From positions 1 to 48,754 of the forward strand of contig RZZR01000005.1 in the NCBI GenBank assembly GCA_009929795.1: a DNA stretch of 48,754 nt. The letters run 5' to 3'. How positions within the stretch are numbered: the first letter of the stretch is position 1; each line of letters starts with the position of its first letter. Below are positions 37,606-47,001 of this stretch, in pieces. The DNA comes from Deltaproteobacteria bacterium. GTDB lineage: Bacteria > Desulfobacterota > Desulfovibrionia > Desulfovibrionales > Desulfomicrobiaceae. A model generated the notes under the pieces. The model did not search any database, was not told the origin of the DNA, and saw only the letters and a list, made by a program, of their open reading frames with translations. A program made the translations under genes and the position numbers.

Positions 37606-37634
37606 TTGACATTTCGTCCGTTTGGACTCAAAAC
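37606..37634 (+). promoter_or_regulatory. Possible promoter of the MltF-like/cheR-like/cheB unit
   Basis: A perfect TTGACA is followed, after 17 bases, only by CAAAAC, a poor -10. It sits 65 bases before the TTG start. Weak support. Confidence 0.3.
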
Positions 37635-37698
37635 CATCGCATCCGACGTTCTCGACCAAAAACACGACAACAACCATGTTCAGCAGGAGTTTTCCGGT

Positions 37699-39192
37699 TT
37701 GAATCAAAGCTCTCTTCAAGGGCTGACCCACACGGCCTTTCTTGCCCTCTCTCTCGTCCTGGCCCTCATTTCTTCCTCCGAAGCCGGAGAGCCGGACGTG
37801 AAACCCCTGACCCTCATGCGCAGCGCCGAGGTTCACACCGAAGACCTTCCTGTTATGAAGGATCGCAAAGCGATCCGGGTTCTGACCAGCTTTTCCCGAA
37901 CAAACTTCTACATCGAACAGGGACAACTCTCCGGTTTCGAATTCGGCCTGCTCAAGGAATACGAAAAGTACCTGAACAAGGAAAGATCCCGCAAGGAATT
38001 GCCGGTCGTCTTTGAATTCATCCCCCTGCCCCAGAGTCTTCTTCTACCGGCTTTGAAGGCGGGATACGGCGACATCGCCGCTGCGGGTCTGACCGTCACC
38101 GAGGCCAGGATGGAGGAAGCGGCCTTCACCAAATCCTACCTGAGCGGCATTTCCGAGATCGTCATCGGCCACGCCGAGGCACCTCCCATCCATACTCTGG
38201 ACGAACTGTCCGGCCGAGATGTTATGGTTCGTCCAAGCAGCAGCTACTTCGAATCTCTGTTGACCTTGAACGAGAGCCTGAAACACAAGGGTCTTCCCCT
38301 GGTTCGGATCCTGGAGGCCGACGAAACTCTGGCCACCGAGGACATCCTTGAAATCGTCAACTGCGGCGTTGTTCCCTACACTGTTGCCGACAGCCATATC
38401 GCCGAGCACTGGCTCCCGGCCCTTTCCGAACTCCGGAGCTATCCTCAGGCCGCCCTTCGACGGGACGGCCGGATCGCCTGGATGGTCCGCCGAAACAATC
38501 CTAAGCTCCTGGCCGACCTCAACGCCTTCATCGACAAACATAAAAAAGGGACCAAGATCGGCAACATTCTGTTCAAGAGACATTTCTCCCCGACCTCGGA
38601 TCTGAAGAATCCCGTCATGCCCGAAGACAATGCGAAGCGGGAAAAATTCGTTTCCCTGTTCAAAAAATTCGGTCTCCAATACGGCATCGACTGGAAGCTC
38701 GTGGCGGCCCAGGCCTACCAAGAATCGGGTTTCGACCACGGCCAACGGTCACCGGCCGGAGCCATCGGCATCATGCAGATTATGCCCTCTCTGGCGGAGG
38801 ACCCTCGGGTGGGCATTGCCGACATTACCTCGGTGGAGGGAAATATCCATGCAGGGGTCAAGTATCTGGCCCTCATCCGCGACCTCTATTTCGACGAAGA
38901 AAATCTTTCAAACAGCGAACGGATTCGATTCGCTCTCGGGGCCTACAATGCCGGACCGACGAGTATTCGCCGGGCAAGGGATCAAACCGAAAAACTGGGT
39001 TTTGATCCCGACCGATGGTTCCGAAATACCGAATACGGGGTACTGCACAGCATCAGCGAAGAGCCGGTCCGGTATGTGAGCAACATCAACAAATACTATC
39101 TGATCTACTCCCTAGCCGAGGCCATGAACACCCGCAAACAGATGATGAAGCAGAAACTTGAGGCCTCGGCAGAGGGAGCCCCCCGCCCATGA
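37699..39192 (+). CDS. MltF-like lytic transglycosylase with solute-binding domain
   Basis: A 497-residue exported protein, probably starting with TTG at 37699 because AGGAG lies 9 bases upstream and the result is a clean signal peptide (FLALSLVLALISSSEAGEP). Residues about 50-300 form an SBP_bac_3 domain (IRVLTSFSRTNFYIEQGQLS, DIAAAGLTVTEARMEEAAFT, DVMVRPSSSYFESL), residues 330-480 an SLT domain with catalytic Glu in AAQAYQESGFD, AIGIMQIMPSLAEDP and LGAYNAGPTSIRRAR. This is the MltF plan, where the binding domain is allosteric. The stop overlaps the degenerate cheR by 4 bases, so it is translated with cheR-like and cheB, an odd partnership. Confidence 0.88.
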   Translation: MNQSSLQGLTHTAFLALSLVLALISSSEAGEPDVKPLTLMRSAEVHTEDLPVMKDRKAIRVLTSFSRTNFYIEQGQLSGFEFGLLKEYEKYLNKERSRKELPVVFEFIPLPQSLLLPALKAGYGDIAAAGLTVTEARMEEAAFTKSYLSGISEIVIGHAEAPPIHTLDELSGRDVMVRPSSSYFESLLTLNESLKHKGLPLVRILEADETLATEDILEIVNCGVVPYTVADSHIAEHWLPALSELRSYPQAALRRDGRIAWMVRRNNPKLLADLNAFIDKHKKGTKIGNILFKRHFSPTSDLKNPVMPEDNAKREKFVSLFKKFGLQYGIDWKLVAAQAYQESGFDHGQRSPAGAIGIMQIMPSLAEDPRVGIADITSVEGNIHAGVKYLALIRDLYFDEENLSNSERIRFALGAYNAGPTSIRRARDQTEKLGFDPDRWFRNTEYGVLHSISEEPVRYVSNINKYYLIYSLAEAMNTRKQMMKQKLEASAEGAPRP

Positions 39193-39869
39193 ACCAGTTC
39201 GGACATCCCCATCGACTGACCGGGTTCCACATCGAACTACCGCACATCATCGAGGCCGTGGCCGATCCGGTGTCCGGATTCTTTCACAGGCCGAACGACT
39301 TCCTCCAACTCCACGACCACGTGCTGCCAAGACTCTGGGAAAATGTCCGGGTCGAGAAGCCCTGGCTGGATATCTGGCATGCCGGATGCTCGACGGGCGA
39401 GGACACGTATTCCCTGGCCATGCTCCTTTTCGAGTTCGCTTCGGACAATCCCGACTGTGACGCCCAGATTCTGGCTACAGACTTTTCGCGGGAATCGCTT
39501 GATGCCGCATCTCTGGCCGTGTATTCTGAAACCTGCGCCAACAGGCTGTCCTACGAGATGAAGCGCCGCTACCTCCTTCGTAGCCGATCCAGGACCGAAT
39601 CCATGGTCCGCATCCGTCCGGAGATCAGAAACGTGGTTCGCTTCAGACGACTGGACTTCATGGAAGACTTCAACTTCCGTCACGAAATGGACCTTGTCTT
39701 CTGTCGAAATCTCATCCACCTCTTCCATATCCCGGTCCAGCAACGTCTCTTGAGTCGAATCCGTAAGCACATGAGCCCCTGGGCATGCCTCGTCCTCGGG
39801 CATCCTTTGTCCTGGACTGATCACCACCTCGAAGAATTCCTCCCCGGTTTCTACTTCCTCAAGGAGTGA
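39189..39869 (+). CDS. Short, degenerate CheR-type methyltransferase
   Basis: A 226-residue protein matching the C-terminal SAM domain of CheR (WHAGCSTGEDTYSLAMLLFE, ILATDFSRESLDAA, MEDFNFRHEMDLVFCRNLIH). The N-terminal helical domain is missing, and the catalytic stretch that reads TTEFFREP in the full CheR of this window reads VSGFFHRP here (Arg to His). The end GHPLSW also departs from the usual GHSES. It may bind SAM or CheB without methylating. It is coupled by ATGA to the MltF-like gene and is 3 bases before cheB. Confidence 0.82.
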   Translation: MNQFGHPHRLTGFHIELPHIIEAVADPVSGFFHRPNDFLQLHDHVLPRLWENVRVEKPWLDIWHAGCSTGEDTYSLAMLLFEFASDNPDCDAQILATDFSRESLDAASLAVYSETCANRLSYEMKRRYLLRSRSRTESMVRIRPEIRNVVRFRRLDFMEDFNFRHEMDLVFCRNLIHLFHIPVQQRLLSRIRKHMSPWACLVLGHPLSWTDHHLEEFLPGFYFLKE

Positions 39870-39872
39870 CCC

Positions 39873-40946
39873 ATGCCCCCAAAAATCAAGGTCCTCATCG
39901 TCGACGATTCGGCCGTAGTCCGGCAGACCCTGAGCGATATCCTGTCCTCTGATCCGAACATAGAGATCTTCGGCACGGCCTCAGATCCCTATGTGGCCGC
40001 CGAAAAACTCAAGCAAGGCATCCCCGACGTCATCACCCTGGACATTGAGATGCCCCGCATGGACGGGATCACGTTCCTCAAAAAGATCATGACCCAGTAC
40101 CCGATCCCGGTCGTCATCTGCTCCACCCTGACCGAAGAGGGGGCCGAAACCACTCTCAAGGCCCTGGAGTACGGAGCACTGGACATCATCCTCAAGCCAA
40201 AAATCGGAACCAAGCAGTTCTTCGAGGAATCAAAGATTCGGATCTGTGACGCAGTCAAGGCCGCCGCCAATGCCCGACTGAAACCCATCACAATCCACAA
40301 GCCCATCAAGGTGACCAAAAAACTTTCCGCCGACGCCGTCATTCCCAAGTCTCCCGGCGGATCGGCCATGATCCAAACCACGGAAAAAATCGTCGTCGTC
40401 GGGGCATCCACGGGAGGCACGGAGGCCTTGGTCCAACTCCTCCAGGCCATGCCCATGGACTGTCCAGCCATCGCCATCGTCCAACACATGCCGGAAAAAT
40501 TCACCAATGCCTTTGCCAAACGTCTGAACGGCATCTGCGCCATCAGTGTCAAGGAGGCCTCCGACAACGATTCCCTGCTCAGAGGTCAGGCCCTAATCGC
40601 ACCGGGTAACCGGCACATGCTCGTCAAACGAAGCGGGGCACGATATTTTGTCCAGATCAAAGAAGGCCCCTTGGTCTCTCGGCATCGGCCTTCGGTGGAC
40701 GTGCTCTTTCGATCGGCCGCCCGCTACGGGGGCAAGAATGTGGTTGGCGTGATAATGACCGGCATGGGCGACGACGGAGCCAAAAGCATGTTCGAAATGC
40801 ATCAGGCCGGGGCCTACAACATCGCCCAGGACGAGGCCTCGTGTGTGGTCTTCGGCATGCCCCAGGAGGCTATCAAACTCGGCGGGGTGGATAAAATCGT
40901 CTCCTTGGACCGCATCGCCCCGGAGGTTATTCGGGCCGCCTCATAA
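39873..40946 (+). CDS. cheB: Chemotaxis response regulator protein-glutamate methylesterase CheB
   Basis: A 357-residue two-domain enzyme. The receiver (residues 5-120) has phospho-Asp in [13 protein letters not shown]. The esterase (residues 170-355) has the catalytic triad in [14 protein letters not shown] (Ser), [18 protein letters not shown] (His) and [17 protein letters not shown] (Asp). It demethylates or deamidates receptor glutamates. All key residues are present. A hairpin terminator for the opposite strand lies just after it. Confidence 0.96.
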
Positions 40947-41676: not shown

Positions 41677-43506
41677 ATGCATCAGGAATACGACAAACAT
41701 TTCGGCAGACTAGAAACGACCCTGTCCGATGTTCTTCCCTCCCTCAAGGCGGTCATCCACGAGCACGAGACCGACTTCCTGAACCTTGGCCAGGAGATGT
41801 TCTCCATCAACCAGGAAGCTAGGAGCCTCGCCTCCCTGGCCGGAGACCTGGTCGACCAGGCCGGCGGCGAGCACATTGATGCGCCAGTCGCGGCCTTCCG
41901 CCAACACCTCGGACTCACCAGGGATGTCTTTGCCATCGACGCCTTTCAAACAAGTCTGTCCGACATGGAAATCATCGTTGGCAGCATCAACGGCCTGAAC
42001 TCTTTGATCCGTGATTTTCGTCGTCTCATCCGTACTCTGCAGGTTCTGGGCATCTCCACACGCATTGAGAGCGCCCGTCTTGGCAGCGCCGGAAGAGGCT
42101 TCACGACTCTGGCCGACGACGTCGAAACCCTGGCCACAAAAATCGCCGAACACTCGGAGCGCATCGCCTCCGAATGCCAAAATCTCCTGAATCGTGTCGA
42201 AGGAGCTCGAACCACGACCAAAGGCATCCTTGACGGCCAGCTCAGGCTGGCATCAGGCTTCAGCGAACGCCTTCAGGAAAATATCCGCGACTTGGAAGAA
42301 ATGCAGACTAACGCCAGCCGTCGTTCAAACGAACTGAACGACAACAGTGCCGCCATCGCCAAAAAAATGGGCGAGATGGTCGTTTCGGCCCAATTTCACG
42401 ATATCACCAGACAAAAAGTTGAGCACGTCGTCGAAGTACTTGAGCATTGCCTCCAACTTCTAACCAATTTCGAAGAGCAAAGCGGGTCCTTGGAAGACGC
42501 CGTGAGCATCCTCACCTTGGTCTTGGACCTCGTGGACCTCCAGGTTTCTCAGCTCACCAATGCCGGACAAACGTTCCTCAAAGCCGTTTACTCCCTGCTG
42601 GCCAGCCTTGAAGACGTCAGGAATCAGATCTCCGGCCTCTTTCGATTGACGGCCGCGGTAGGCTCGACCGACGTCGAGAATGATTCTCCTCTGATTCGGG
42701 CTCAAAAGGGCATCGACGGTCTGCTCGAGGCGATGACCGAATGCGCATCCCAGGCCGCTGGAATCGGACGGGCCATGGAGGAAGTCGCCTCCACTGTGGG
42801 CGAGATGGTCAAAATGGCCGAGGATATTGAAGAGGTCGGCTCCGAGATTGAGCTCATCGCCCTGAATGCCAGCGTCAGGGCCGCCCATACCGGCGAGGAG
42901 GGTCGGGCCATGGGTGTTCTGGCCGTGGCCATCCAAAAGCTCTCGGGTGACGCCAGGGAACTGACAGATGCGGCCACTGATCGACTTCAGGAGATTTCCT
43001 CGAACTCCCACAAGCTGTTCGAGACCGCAGCCAAGGCTACCGATGCCCGACACGTGCACGAAATGACCGACTCCTTCAACGACATCTTTCAACAACTCCA
43101 TGACATGGAGGACGGGATCACCGAAAACTTCGAACGGGTTCGCGAGGCGGCCGGACGACTGGATGCCAGGATCATGGCCCTCACCGGCGACATCACTTTC
43201 CATGAAAGGGTCGATGCCGACATCCGGACCACAGCCGCCGGGCTAATCGAAACCATCGGATCCGTACGGTCGAAACTCCCGCCCATCGACTCGGAAACTC
43301 TCCTGCGAAATCGTTCCCGGATCGAGGCGCTGCTTCAGAAATACACCATGGATAGCGAACGGGTCATCCACGAGGAGATGTTCGGCCGTAATCATACCAA
43401 AACTGAATCGACCCCCAGGAAAACTGACATGGATGAGGTTGAACTTTTCGACGATTTCTCAGATGATAGAGATGACGATTTGGGCGACAATGTCGAACTC
43501 TTCTAA
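41677..43506 (+). CDS. Soluble MCP-like protein with CheZ-like active-site motif, tandem duplicated
   Basis: A 609-residue helical protein with no membrane segment. Two MCP hairpin-tip-like stretches occur: residues 121-142 (LQVLGISTRIESARLGSAGR) and 391-412 (IELIALNASVRAAHTGEEGR), 270 apart. About 100 residues after each lies a helix like that around the CheZ active site: AQFHDITRQKVEHVVEVLE at 238-256, and a weaker TFHERVDADI at 507. CheZ has FQDLTGQ; its catalytic Asp and Gln (D-x3-Q) match Asp242 and Gln246. The second copy lacks them. The C-terminus is acidic with DEVELF and DNVELF. I infer a scaffold with CheY-P phosphatase activity, but no family is certain. cheY follows 90 bases later. 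The ribosome site is weak. Confidence 0.75.
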   Translation: MHQEYDKHFGRLETTLSDVLPSLKAVIHEHETDFLNLGQEMFSINQEARSLASLAGDLVDQAGGEHIDAPVAAFRQHLGLTRDVFAIDAFQTSLSDMEIIVGSINGLNSLIRDFRRLIRTLQVLGISTRIESARLGSAGRGFTTLADDVETLATKIAEHSERIASECQNLLNRVEGARTTTKGILDGQLRLASGFSERLQENIRDLEEMQTNASRRSNELNDNSAAIAKKMGEMVVSAQFHDITRQKVEHVVEVLEHCLQLLTNFEEQSGSLEDAVSILTLVLDLVDLQVSQLTNAGQTFLKAVYSLLASLEDVRNQISGLFRLTAAVGSTDVENDSPLIRAQKGIDGLLEAMTECASQAAGIGRAMEEVASTVGEMVKMAEDIEEVGSEIELIALNASVRAAHTGEEGRAMGVLAVAIQKLSGDARELTDAATDRLQEISSNSHKLFETAAKATDARHVHEMTDSFNDIFQQLHDMEDGITENFERVREAAGRLDARIMALTGDITFHERVDADIRTTAAGLIETIGSVRSKLPPIDSETLLRNRSRIEALLQKYTMDSERVIHEEMFGRNHTKTESTPRKTDMDEVELFDDFSDDRDDDLGDNVELF

Positions 43507-43596: not shown

Positions 43597-43959
43597 ATGA
43601 CCAAAACGATCATGACCGTCGACGATTCGGCGAGTGTCCGCCAGATGGTGGGGTTCACCCTCAAAGATGCCGGGTACGGAGTCATCGAGGCCTCCGACGG
43701 CAAGGACGCCCTGTCAAAACTCTCTGGCCAGGTCCACATGGTCGTCACCGATCTGAACATGCCGAACATGGACGGCATTGAGCTGATCCGTAGCATCCGG
43801 GCCAACCCGGCCTACAAATTCATCCCCATCGTCATGCTCACCACGGAATCCCAGGATTCCAAGAAACAAGAAGGAAAGGCCGCCGGGGCCACTGGGTGGA
43901 TCGTCAAGCCCTTCAAGCCTGACCAGCTCCTGGCCGTGGTCAAAAAATTGATCCGCTGA
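43597..43959 (+). CDS. cheY: Chemotaxis response regulator CheY
   Basis: A 120-residue receiver in the CheY class: TIMTVDDSASVRQMVGFTL, phospho-Asp in VVTDLNMPNMDGIEL, Thr in VMLTTESQDSKKQ, Lys in WIVKPFKPDQLL. The ATG at 43597 has AGGAG 8 bases upstream. It lies between the MCP/CheZ-like protein and cheA, matching a phosphate flow from CheA to CheY. Confidence 0.94.
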   Translation: MTKTIMTVDDSASVRQMVGFTLKDAGYGVIEASDGKDALSKLSGQVHMVVTDLNMPNMDGIELIRSIRANPAYKFIPIVMLTTESQDSKKQEGKAAGATGWIVKPFKPDQLLAVVKKLIR

Positions 43960-44005: not shown

Positions 44006-46129
44006 ATGTCTGTAGAATCCCAAAATCAACAAGCCTTCCGAGACGAGGCCACGGAGCTGCTCGGAGAACTCGAAAACTCCTTGCTCGAACTCGAACACAA
44101 CCCTGAGGACCAGGAACTGATCAACAGGGTCTTCCGGGCCATGCACACTATCAAGGGCTCCGGGGCCATGTTCGGATTCGAGGACATCGCGACCTTCACC
44201 CACGAGGTCGAAAGCGTCTTTGAACTGGTCCGCAATAAGCTGGTTCCCATCTCTAAACGGCTTCTTGATTTGACCCTTATGGCCAGGGATCAGATTCTGG
44301 CCATGCTCCAAGGGGAGGACTCGGGATCCGGAGACCAGACCCAAACAGTCATCACCGGACTCAAGGAAATCGTCCGCCTGCACGCTCCCGAACAGGAAAA
44401 GACAGCCGTCGAGGAAAAAACGATTCCGAGGGCCGGCGAGATTGGGGACGAGGGCACCAACGTCTTCAGGATCCGCTTCAAGCCCGATCGTCGCATCTTT
44501 CTGACCGGATCCAATCCCTATGGACTGATTCTTGACTTGGCCGATCTTGGCCATGAGAGCCATGTTCTACTGACAGAAGAGGTACCCCTACTCCAGGAAC
44601 TGGATCCAGAATCCTGCTACCTGAGCTGGGACATCCTTCTGTCCACGCCCCAGAACGAGGACGCCGTTAGGGAGATCTTCGTATTTGTCGAGGAGGACTG
44701 CGATCTCCAAATCTCCACCCTCATGACCACCGGGTCCGACATAGACGACTCTGCCCACAAACGTCTCGGCGAAATTCTCATCGACCGGGGTGACCTGACT
44801 GAAGACCAATTGAGGCAGGTTCTCGGCCAGCAAAAACCGCTGGGAGCTCTGCTCGCCGAACAGGGCCTCGTGCCCCCGGCCAAAGTCCGTTCGGCCCTCA
44901 AAGAACAGGAACAGCTCCGGCAGAAGCAGACCGTCGTCCAGCAGCAAAAGCTGGACCAGGGATCGAGCATCAGGGTTCCGGCCGAAAAACTTGACTCCCT
45001 GGTCGATCTCGTCGGTGAGCTGGTCACGGTCCAGGCCCGTCTCTCACAATTCGCTACCCAATTCACCGACACCGCTCTGGTGTCCATCGCCGAGGACCTC
45101 GAGCGACTGAGCGATGAACTCCGGGACAGCACCCTTGGGGTCCGCATGCTGCCCATCGGGACGACCTTCAACAAGTTCAAGCGGCTCGTCAGGGACCTCT
45201 CCAACGACTTAGGCAAAGAGATCGAACTCGTCACCCACGGCGCCGAAACCGAACTGGACAAGACCGTCATTGAGCGTCTGAACGACCCGCTCGTCCACCT
45301 TCTGCGCAACAGCATCGACCATGGCATTGAACTCCCGGACGAGCGTCAGGCAGCGGACAAGCCCAGAACCGGGACCATCGTCCTCACGGCCGAACACTCC
45401 GGAGGAGAGGTCCTCATCCAGATTACCGACGACGGAGCCGGCATCGACCCAACCAAACTTCGGGCTAAGGCCGTGGAGCGCGGGATCATTCTCCCCGAGG
45501 CAGACCTGACCGAACAGGAAATGCTGGGCCTGATTTTCGCGCCCGGTTTTTCCACGGCCGTCAAGGTCACCAATGTGTCCGGCCGGGGCGTAGGCATGGA
45601 CGTCGTCAAGCGGAACATCGACGCTCTCCGGGGACGAATCCACGTTGAAAGCCAGATTGGTCGGGGAACGACCATCAGTATCCGACTCCCGTTGACCCTG
45701 GCCATCATCGACGGCCTCCAGGTTCGGGTCGGCTCGGAATTCTTCATCCTTCCTCTCACCCTCGTCGAAGAATGCGTCGAACTCGTGAACCAGAACGATC
45801 AGGACGAAAAAAAACGGTTCCTCAACCTTAGGGGTGAAATCGTCCCCTACATTCGCCTCAGAAACTGCTTCGGCATCTCTGGACGGCGACCGCCCATCGA
45901 ACAAGTGGTCATCACAACAACCGAGGATCAGCGCATGGGCATCGTCGTCGATACCGTTGTCGGCGAACACCAGACCGTGATCAAAAGCCTCGGCCGCGTC
46001 TACAGGGACGTCAAAGGCCTCTCCGGAGCCACGGTCAAGGGTGACGGAACCTTGGCCCTCATTCTTGACATCCCCGGCCTGGTTCAATCGGTGCAGCCCG
46101 ATAAAGGGTCCATGCAAAAACACGTATGA
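44006..46129 (+). CDS. cheA: Chemotaxis histidine kinase CheA with an inserted helical region
   Basis: A 707-residue kinase. HPt domain at 1-105 with His47 in AMHTIKGSGAMFGF. Residues 150-240 form a mixed domain (VFRIRFKPDRRIFLTGSNP; LSWDILLSTPQNEDAVREIF). Residues 251-300 hold an MshEN-like helical repeat (HKRLGEILIDRGDLTEDQLR and PLGALLAEQGLVPPAKV). Then come dimerisation (LDSLVDLVGELVTVQARL), ATPase (HLLRNSIDHGIE; ITDDGAGID; SGRGVGMDVV) and CheW-like (565-700) domains. A conventional CheY-binding P2 is not obvious. No cheW is nearby. Its stop overlaps cheR by 4 bases. Confidence 0.94.
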   Translation: MSVESQNQQAFRDEATELLGELENSLLELEHNPEDQELINRVFRAMHTIKGSGAMFGFEDIATFTHEVESVFELVRNKLVPISKRLLDLTLMARDQILAMLQGEDSGSGDQTQTVITGLKEIVRLHAPEQEKTAVEEKTIPRAGEIGDEGTNVFRIRFKPDRRIFLTGSNPYGLILDLADLGHESHVLLTEEVPLLQELDPESCYLSWDILLSTPQNEDAVREIFVFVEEDCDLQISTLMTTGSDIDDSAHKRLGEILIDRGDLTEDQLRQVLGQQKPLGALLAEQGLVPPAKVRSALKEQEQLRQKQTVVQQQKLDQGSSIRVPAEKLDSLVDLVGELVTVQARLSQFATQFTDTALVSIAEDLERLSDELRDSTLGVRMLPIGTTFNKFKRLVRDLSNDLGKEIELVTHGAETELDKTVIERLNDPLVHLLRNSIDHGIELPDERQAADKPRTGTIVLTAEHSGGEVLIQITDDGAGIDPTKLRAKAVERGIILPEADLTEQEMLGLIFAPGFSTAVKVTNVSGRGVGMDVVKRNIDALRGRIHVESQIGRGTTISIRLPLTLAIIDGLQVRVGSEFFILPLTLVEECVELVNQNDQDEKKRFLNLRGEIVPYIRLRNCFGISGRRPPIEQVVITTTEDQRMGIVVDTVVGEHQTVIKSLGRVYRDVKGLSGATVKGDGTLALILDIPGLVQSVQPDKGSMQKHV

Positions 46130-47001
46130 AAAGCTCAGGAGCAAGGCCCTCCTCGACCCTGCATCCAATGCCGGCCATGAGCCCGCGTGAATTCGCCAAG
46201 TTCAGCGAATTCATTTCCAAGGAACTGGGAATCAAGATCTCGGACAAGAAGCAGGGAATGCTCCAGGCCCGTCTTCAAAAACGGTTGCGCATCCTTGCCC
46301 TGCCCTCGTTCACCGCCTATTGCGAATATCTCTTCTCCCTAAAAGGAATGGAGATTGAGCTCCCACATCTGGTGGACGCCGTGACCACTAACACAACCGA
46401 GTTCTTTCGCGAACCCAAGCACTTCGATTATATGAACTCCGTCGTCCTGCCCGAGTTCATCGCCCGTGGAGACAACGCGCCGATGGCCATCTGGAGTGCC
46501 GGGTGCTCTTCCGGTGAAGAGCCATATACCCTGGCCATTGTTCTCAACGAGTTCAAGGAAACCCGCGCCCCGCGTTTCCGGTTCGGAATTCTGGCCACGG
46601 ACATTTCCCGAGAGATTCTGGAAAAGGCCATGCGGGCTGTCTACACAGAGGAACGCGTCGAAAAAATACCCTACATGCTGAAGAAAAAATATCTTTTGCG
46701 AAGCAAGGAACGGTCTCGGGGGCTTGTGCGTATCGTCCCGGAACTTCGCAAGCTGGTCCATTTTCGCCAGCTGAATTTTATGGAAGACTTCGGATTTCGG
46801 GAGACAATGCACGTTATCTTCTGCCGCAATGTCATGATTTACTTCGACCGTCCCACCCAGGAACGCCTTATCAACCGCTTCTGCGAACACCTTGACGTCG
46901 GGGGATATCTCTTCATCGGCCACTCCGAGAGTCTGACCGGTCTCCGAGTCCCTCTGATTCAATCCGCTCCCACGGTCTATCGACGAATCAAAAAATCCTA
47001 A
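46126..47001 (+). CDS. cheR: Chemotaxis protein methyltransferase CheR
   Basis: A 291-residue SAM-dependent methyltransferase with both domains: N-terminal helical domain (FAKFSEFISKELGIKISD; LQARLQKRLRIL) and SAM domain (AVTTNTTEFFREPKHF with the key Arg, IWSAGCSSGEEPYTLAIVL, ILATDISREILEKAM, VIFCRNVMIYFD, GHSESL). It methylates receptor glutamates, opposed by CheB. The start at 46126 overlaps the cheA stop; internal ATGs at 46168 and 46177 are possible. Compare the degenerate paralogue at the other end of the cluster. Confidence 0.95.
   Translation: MKSSGARPSSTLHPMPAMSPREFAKFSEFISKELGIKISDKKQGMLQARLQKRLRILALPSFTAYCEYLFSLKGMEIELPHLVDAVTTNTTEFFREPKHFDYMNSVVLPEFIARGDNAPMAIWSAGCSSGEEPYTLAIVLNEFKETRAPRFRFGILATDISREILEKAMRAVYTEERVEKIPYMLKKKYLLRSKERSRGLVRIVPELRKLVHFRQLNFMEDFGFRETMHVIFCRNVMIYFDRPTQERLINRFCEHLDVGGYLFIGHSESLTGLRVPLIQSAPTVYRRIKKS

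Follow-up and report, generated by a model that had tools for sequence, protein, structure and literature searches.

By profile comparison, MCPZ (the name used here for the 609-residue product of one gene in a window of 48,754 nucleotides, the whole stretch of DNA that was analysed) resolves into two fused copies of one unit, each consisting of a chemoreceptor (MCP) signalling stretch followed by a homologue of the helix that carries the catalytic residues of the CheY-P phosphatase CheZ. We consider it probable that the protein derives from a chemoreceptor and serves as a soluble scaffold of the receptor array, with a CheY-P phosphatase site of the CheZ type built into the same chain. The features on which this reading rests are collected in the table below.

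Table. Features of MCPZ and its gene neighbourhood (positions in the window unless a locus is given)
Feature	Position	Strand	Basis or remark
MCPZ (tandem MCP-like / CheZ-helix protein)	41677..43506	+	609 aa, ATG start, no internal stop, predicted soluble
Repeat unit 1, residues about 36-268	41782..42480	+	hhalign, half 1 vs half 2
Repeat unit 2, residues about 306-535	42592..43281	+	hhalign, half 1 vs half 2
MCP-like tip of unit 1, residues 118-150, RIESARLGSAGRGF	42028..42126	+	E131, R134, F142 kept; tip Asn absent
MCP-like tip of unit 2, residues 388-423, IALNASVRAAHTG	42838..42945	+	N397 82/82; K/R/Q at 401; mostly H at 404
CheZ-homologous helix, residues 232-256, including Q239-F-H-D242-I-T-R-Q246	42370..42444	+	conservation and profile comparison
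Predicted catalytic pair D242 ... Q246	42400..42414	+	invariant 82/82; aligned to CheZ D/Q
Decayed unit-2 counterpart of the catalytic site, residues 508-514, FHERVDA	43198..43218	+	hhalign and entropy
YTM..ER..H motif, residues 556-565	43342..43371	+	Y556 and T557 82/82
Acidic disordered linker, residues 573-603	43393..43485	+	pLDDT below 50; 17-85 residues across the family
C-terminal docking tag (putative) GDNVELF-COOH	43483..43503	+	N[VIF][ED]LF end in 81/82 homologues
cheY, single-domain response regulator, presumed MCPZ substrate	43597..43959	+	Response_reg E 3.5e-26; conserved neighbour
cheA (Hpt, dimerisation, HATPase, CheW domains; no P2 match)	44006..46129	+	Pfam
cheR, full length, overlaps cheA stop	46126..47001	+	Pfam
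cheB	39873..40946	+	Pfam
Second cheR, without CheR_N domain	39189..39869	+	Pfam
STAS-like small ORF (by eye)	L119 7746-8150; L136 7716-8027; L142 7750-8094		between tandem gene and cheY

The earlier note on this DNA had proposed a tandem repeat of about 270 residues, and this is confirmed at two levels. Plain self-alignment of MCPZ scores 80, above every one of 1000 shuffles (mean 41.7, sd 6.7, max 72), and half-1 and half-2 profiles built from 82 homologues align over 232 columns (hhalign probability 98.1, E 1.3e-13), pairing FHDITRQ (240-246) with FHERVDA (508-514). The AlphaFold model is all-helical (pLDDT 89.5, pTM 0.71) and its helices are interrupted at equivalent points of the two units, 238-239 and 506-507, 268 residues apart; its nearest PDB matches are mostly chemoreceptors. 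There is no transmembrane-like hydrophobic segment in the sequence, and Pfam gave no recognisable match to a sensor domain. Near the C-terminus, the YTM..ER..H motif equals the catalytic site in invariance and is found again in one-copy relatives.

The receptor character of the protein is evident from Pfam MCPsignal (PF00015), which matches MCPZ at E 1.4e-15 (58.1 bits vs a cut-off of 34.6) as well as 23 of 23 orthologues; the two MCP-tip-like stretches picked out earlier (about 118-150 and 388-423) are hence real. Divergence has left the two tips complementary: copy 1 has the MCP-tip Glu, Arg and Phe without the Asn, and copy 2 keeps the Asn (82/82) but mostly has Lys/Arg in place of the Glu and His in place of the Arg. 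Each copy retains part of the CheA/CheW-binding tip, E131/R134/F142 in one and N397 in the other. The DSSP string of the model is unbroken at both tips, the places of the presumed hairpins. The two units may together constitute a single-chain pseudo-dimer. MCPZ shares with soluble-class MCPs (PF00015) the signalling-domain profile, tip-like sequence and adjacency to cheA, and differs from MCPs in having no transmembrane or sensor domain, in carrying two signalling stretches per chain with complementary tip residues, and in possessing a CheZ-type helix while lacking the aromatic CheR pentapeptide.

The D-x3-Q site is more than a chance match. Asp242 and Gln246, together with His241, Arg245 and His250, are invariant in the 82-sequence alignment, which draws homologues from several phyla. 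The genome-contig scan for homologues searched with two peptide patterns, the catalytic site itself among them, and 74 of the 80 homologues kept from it contain the site pattern, so that conservation there is partly selected; a set of 28 relatives found by whole-protein similarity, with the motif not used, is free of this bias and keeps both residues in 28/28. More distant tandem relatives read FQDITRQ or YQDITRQ; across the relatives' sequences the His241 position is not universal, and Asp and Gln are kept. At five Solidesulfovibrio-type loci (L100, L101, L134, L091 and L111) the site reads QSHDIVRQ, with Phe240 replaced by Ser. Copy 1 thus keeps the Asp and Gln of the CheZ-type pattern, as the earlier note had read it, and copy 2 has indeed lost them, the mean residue entropy being 2.85 bits for residues 500-524 vs 1.15 bits for 232-256. 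The "F-H-D/E" of copy 2 did not hold up as a conserved motif, only His509 being partly kept (60/82).

In profile comparison, FHDITRQ of copy 1 lies in register with the catalytic FQDLTGQ of CheZ, and the local CheZ aligns to 1KMI, in which FQDLTGQ holds D143 and Q147. The tandem-family profile matches the local CheZ profile at E 4.5e-5; half 1 alone reaches 1.2e-5 and half 2 reaches 0.002, and the controls for the whole-protein comparison gave 0.03 (reversed MCPZ) and 0.0036 (the lowest among 30 heptad-block shuffles). A helix profile made from five receptor-type sequences, and free of CheZ, retrieves the CheZ gene of MCPZ's own genome at E 1.5e-6 and further CheZ genes at 3.0e-8, 2.6e-7, 3.6e-7, 4.7e-7, 5.2e-7 and 5.3e-7, hits which coincide with above-cut-off Pfam CheZ matches. 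When broadened, the receptor-helix profile aligns with the CheZ profile at E 4.9e-10 (probability 96.6), with the Asp and the Gln of each in matching columns. By these comparisons, the MCPZ helix and the catalytic helix of CheZ are homologues.

The Pfam CheZ model (PF04344) itself gives MCPZ 22.7 bits, below its cut-off of 30.7 and at a level around which unrelated coiled-coil families also match MCPZ-type sequences; single-sequence Pfam CheZ matches were set aside as evidence, being mixed with coiled-coil noise. By Pfam membership MCPZ is not a CheZ; it may well work like one. Neither searching PDB sequences with a profile of the catalytic region nor a fold search with fragment 165-335 brought up CheZ; both returned generic helices, an outcome of little meaning for plain helices. 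CheZ has an AXXFQ motif ahead of DXXXQ (PMC7750401), where MCPZ reads SAQFH; the Phe is conserved in most homologues, and Ser stands for Ala and His for Gln.

Set beside CheZ (PF04344; E. coli CheZ, PDB 1KMI), MCPZ thus has the homologous catalytic helix with D-x3-Q in register, and the two are also alike in running from a catalytic helical part through a flexible linker of about 30 residues to a C-terminal peptide. Upstream of the helix MCPZ has receptor signalling stretches in place of the CheZ hairpin, and it is a tandem with one dead copy; within the site, Arg (R245) occupies the Gly146 position and His (H241) the Gln142 position. The C-terminal peptides differ as well, GDNVELF in MCPZ as against the CheZ-type TQDQVDAILSQM in the CheZ of the same genome; canonical CheZ of relatives ends in a DVDDLLxQLG-type sequence, and this CheZ-type CheY-binding peptide is absent from MCPZ.

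The MCPZ tail follows a near-universal family consensus, [GD]N[VI][ED]LF-COOH; its DNA pattern occurs once in the genome, and the tail is repeated in several Desulfovibrionales members of the family. One-copy membrane receptors with FQDI-type helices end in IELF, VELF, VVLF, ITFF and similar. When relatives were searched for with a D-x3-Q helix profile that excludes the tail, a [VI]x[LF]F-COOH tag was present in 29/29 complete proteins, nine of them one-copy receptors; the tag is found in 0/75 ordinary MCPs vs 9/9 one-copy D-x3-Q receptors (p 2.7e-12, a guide only, the sequences being related). Of these ordinary MCPs from the sampled genomes, 40/75 end in an aromatic CheR-type tether, mostly FE[RK][FY], and those of MCPZ's own genome (loci L003, L005, L007) end in FERF/FERY, a CheR-type pentapeptide unlike the MCPZ tag. 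The CheR pentapeptide pattern, x-[HFYW]-x-x-[HFYW], does not describe NVELF, which has Val at position 2, and an ordinary CheR pentapeptide is disfavoured, since local MCPs carry a different tether and none of the 75 has [VI]x[LF]F. The MCPZ tail may instead be a CheY dock, a reading that we adopt by analogy with CheZ and mainly because the tail is coupled to the D-x3-Q helix.

An MCPZ-type gene lies directly upstream of cheY-cheA in most loci, and cheR and cheB are present in many of the clusters. Here the short cheR and cheB lie upstream of the MCPZ gene, with a minus-strand response regulator in between; the cluster has two cheR genes, the first without CheR_N. In CheA, residues about 255-317 (LGEILIDRGDLTEDQLRQVLGQQK...) stand in the place of P2 and resemble, by eye, a c-di-GMP-binding repeat of the MshEN type; the segment has a marginal DUF4388 match only in Pfam. 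Just upstream of the cluster, an ORF at 37606-39192 fuses a type-3 solute-binding domain to an SLT transglycosylase domain (MltF-like). The five Solidesulfovibrio-type clusters have no cheY between the MCPZ-type gene and cheA; in those genomes that were checked, the displaced cheY is found as a 78-82% identical copy at another place. Between the tandem gene and cheY, loci of Kuenenia, Ignavibacteria and Bacteroidetes have a small ORF, STAS-like by eye, and locus L119 has a hemerythrin-like ORF ahead of cheA as well. FliM was found in 25/26 sampled MCPZ-family genomes, and the output is therefore the flagellar pathway; a type-IV-pilus output, for which pilT/pilU-like ORFs occur within the window, is disfavoured by the same count.

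One genome-contig scan yielded 231 relatives, of which the best 80 include, by record title, members of Desulfobacterota, Nitrospirota, Planctomycetota, Bacteroidota and Ignavibacteria; a one-copy relative is present in the alphaproteobacterium Methylosinus. One-copy MCPs, mostly membrane-anchored, combine an F/Y-Q/E-D-x3-Q helix with a [VI]x[LF]F tail (L179, L180, L181, L189, L217, L218, L238, L240, L241, L245), and the helix lies about 115 residues after the tip (measured in L179, L180, L181 and L189). These receptors are probably related to the unit from which the tandem protein arose. A one-copy relative is annotated "methyl-accepting chemotaxis protein"; members of the family are annotated by their MCP domain only, and the phosphatase-like part is thereby hidden. 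No description of an MCP-CheZ fusion was found in the literature searched, whose coverage mostly excluded subscription papers, and the family is, as far as we found, both widespread and undescribed.

We infer phosphatase function, CheY docking and array membership for MCPZ, in a scheme whereby its MCP stretches would pack as a single-chain pseudo-dimer and join a CheA-containing array. The C-terminal tag would capture CheY-P from the co-encoded cheY; in CheZ it is the C-terminal helix that captures CheY-P. Asp242 and Gln246 would then speed CheY-P hydrolysis, leading to signal termination inside the array, with copy 2 lending structural support and taking no part in catalysis. CheT of Sinorhizobium meliloti, a non-CheZ protein with this motif and a predicted CheZ-like fold, dephosphorylates one CheY (reviewed in PMC12654446). 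CheT and MCPZ are alike, by description, as non-CheZ chemotaxis proteins with DXXXQ, whereas CheT is stand-alone, has homologues reported from alpha-proteobacteria and is not described as a receptor.

Three other readings of the site and tag were weighed. MCPZ could act as a sink or localiser, its CheZ-derived helix and tag concentrating CheY-P at the array with weak or absent catalysis; a tag as constant as the site and repeated in several lineages would suit this, as would a genome that already holds catalytic CheZ, CheX and CheC-like genes, but pure binding would not call for an Asp and a Gln kept without exception (82/82) in one copy and lost from the other, and we regard the idea as unlikely. 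We find it quite improbable that MCPZ is an ordinary cytoplasmic chemoreceptor, its D-x3-Q incidental to the helix and its NVELF a CheR/CheB tether like NWETF: the above-cut-off MCPsignal match, the register of N, E and F between the two peptides and the many clusters with cheR and cheB speak for it, yet MCPs of these genomes use FE[RK][FY], with an aromatic at position 2 (40/75), and never [VI]x[LF]F (0/75), and the helix matches CheZ by profile.

The spacing of the site raises a further possibility, that His241 in HDxxxQ could exchange phosphate with CheY as part of a histidine phosphotransfer or HisKA_3-like site. His241 is constant in the tandem alignment (82/82), and the spacing is that of His188-Asp189-Gln193 in DesK (PMC5231405); in NarX/DesK-type HisKA_3 kinases, Asp and Gln serve response-regulator dephosphorylation (PMC3510030, PMC5231405). 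MCPZ shares this spacing with NarX and DesK and has neither a kinase domain nor profile similarity: HisKA_3 (DHp) was absent from the Pfam scan of MCPZ and its orthologues, profile comparison was null (E 0.0088 elsewhere in MCPZ, 0.043 for the helix), leading us to reject a HisKA_3 relationship of the helix, and one-copy and some tandem relatives have Gln or Glu where MCPZ has His241. Phosphotransfer therefore strikes us as very improbable, and a scaffold fused to a phosphatase remains the reading we prefer.

The absence of cheZ, cheC and cheX had been offered as the explanation for MCPZ. For cheZ in the cluster the statement is correct; for the genome it is wrong, a canonical CheZ with its own CheY-binding-type C-terminus, two CheX and one CheC-like protein all being encoded elsewhere. 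CheX and CheC are alternative CheY-P phosphatases, and CheX uses ExxN instead of DxxxQ (PMC3510030). Since the genome has all of these types, and most relatives with MCPZ also carry CheZ, we reject the explanation here; another phosphatase may do the work. Otherwise the fused scaffold/phosphatase proposal, with one putatively live and one dead half, draws support from the duplication, from the CheZ-homologous helix, whose Asp and Gln persist in copy 1 but not in copy 2, and from the receptor-like scaffold. The missing-cheZ rationale regains force in other lineages: CheZ above cut-off is absent in 10/24 sampled MCPZ-family genomes, including Geotalea, Trichlorobacter, Geobacter and Kuenenia (absence being tentative in the several that are MAGs), and a 2008 survey of Geobacter reported no cheZ, its authors concluding that a CheZ-independent mechanism must operate (PMC2577667).

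For that mechanism the MCPZ family is a testable candidate. If the preferred reading is true, a receptor-derived protein couples both ends of the CheY cycle within one polypeptide. The prevailing view is that chemoreceptors control the kinase and that phosphatases are separate proteins. More tentatively, as a serious possibility rather than an expectation, MCPZ may belong to a class of receptor-phosphatase fusions that spans phyla and has so far gone unrecognised. Such a class, comprising one-helix membrane receptors and soluble tandems, would end the CheY signal inside the array, possibly under the control of receptor state, and would supply CheZ function in flagellated CheZ-less lineages such as Geobacter and Kuenenia.
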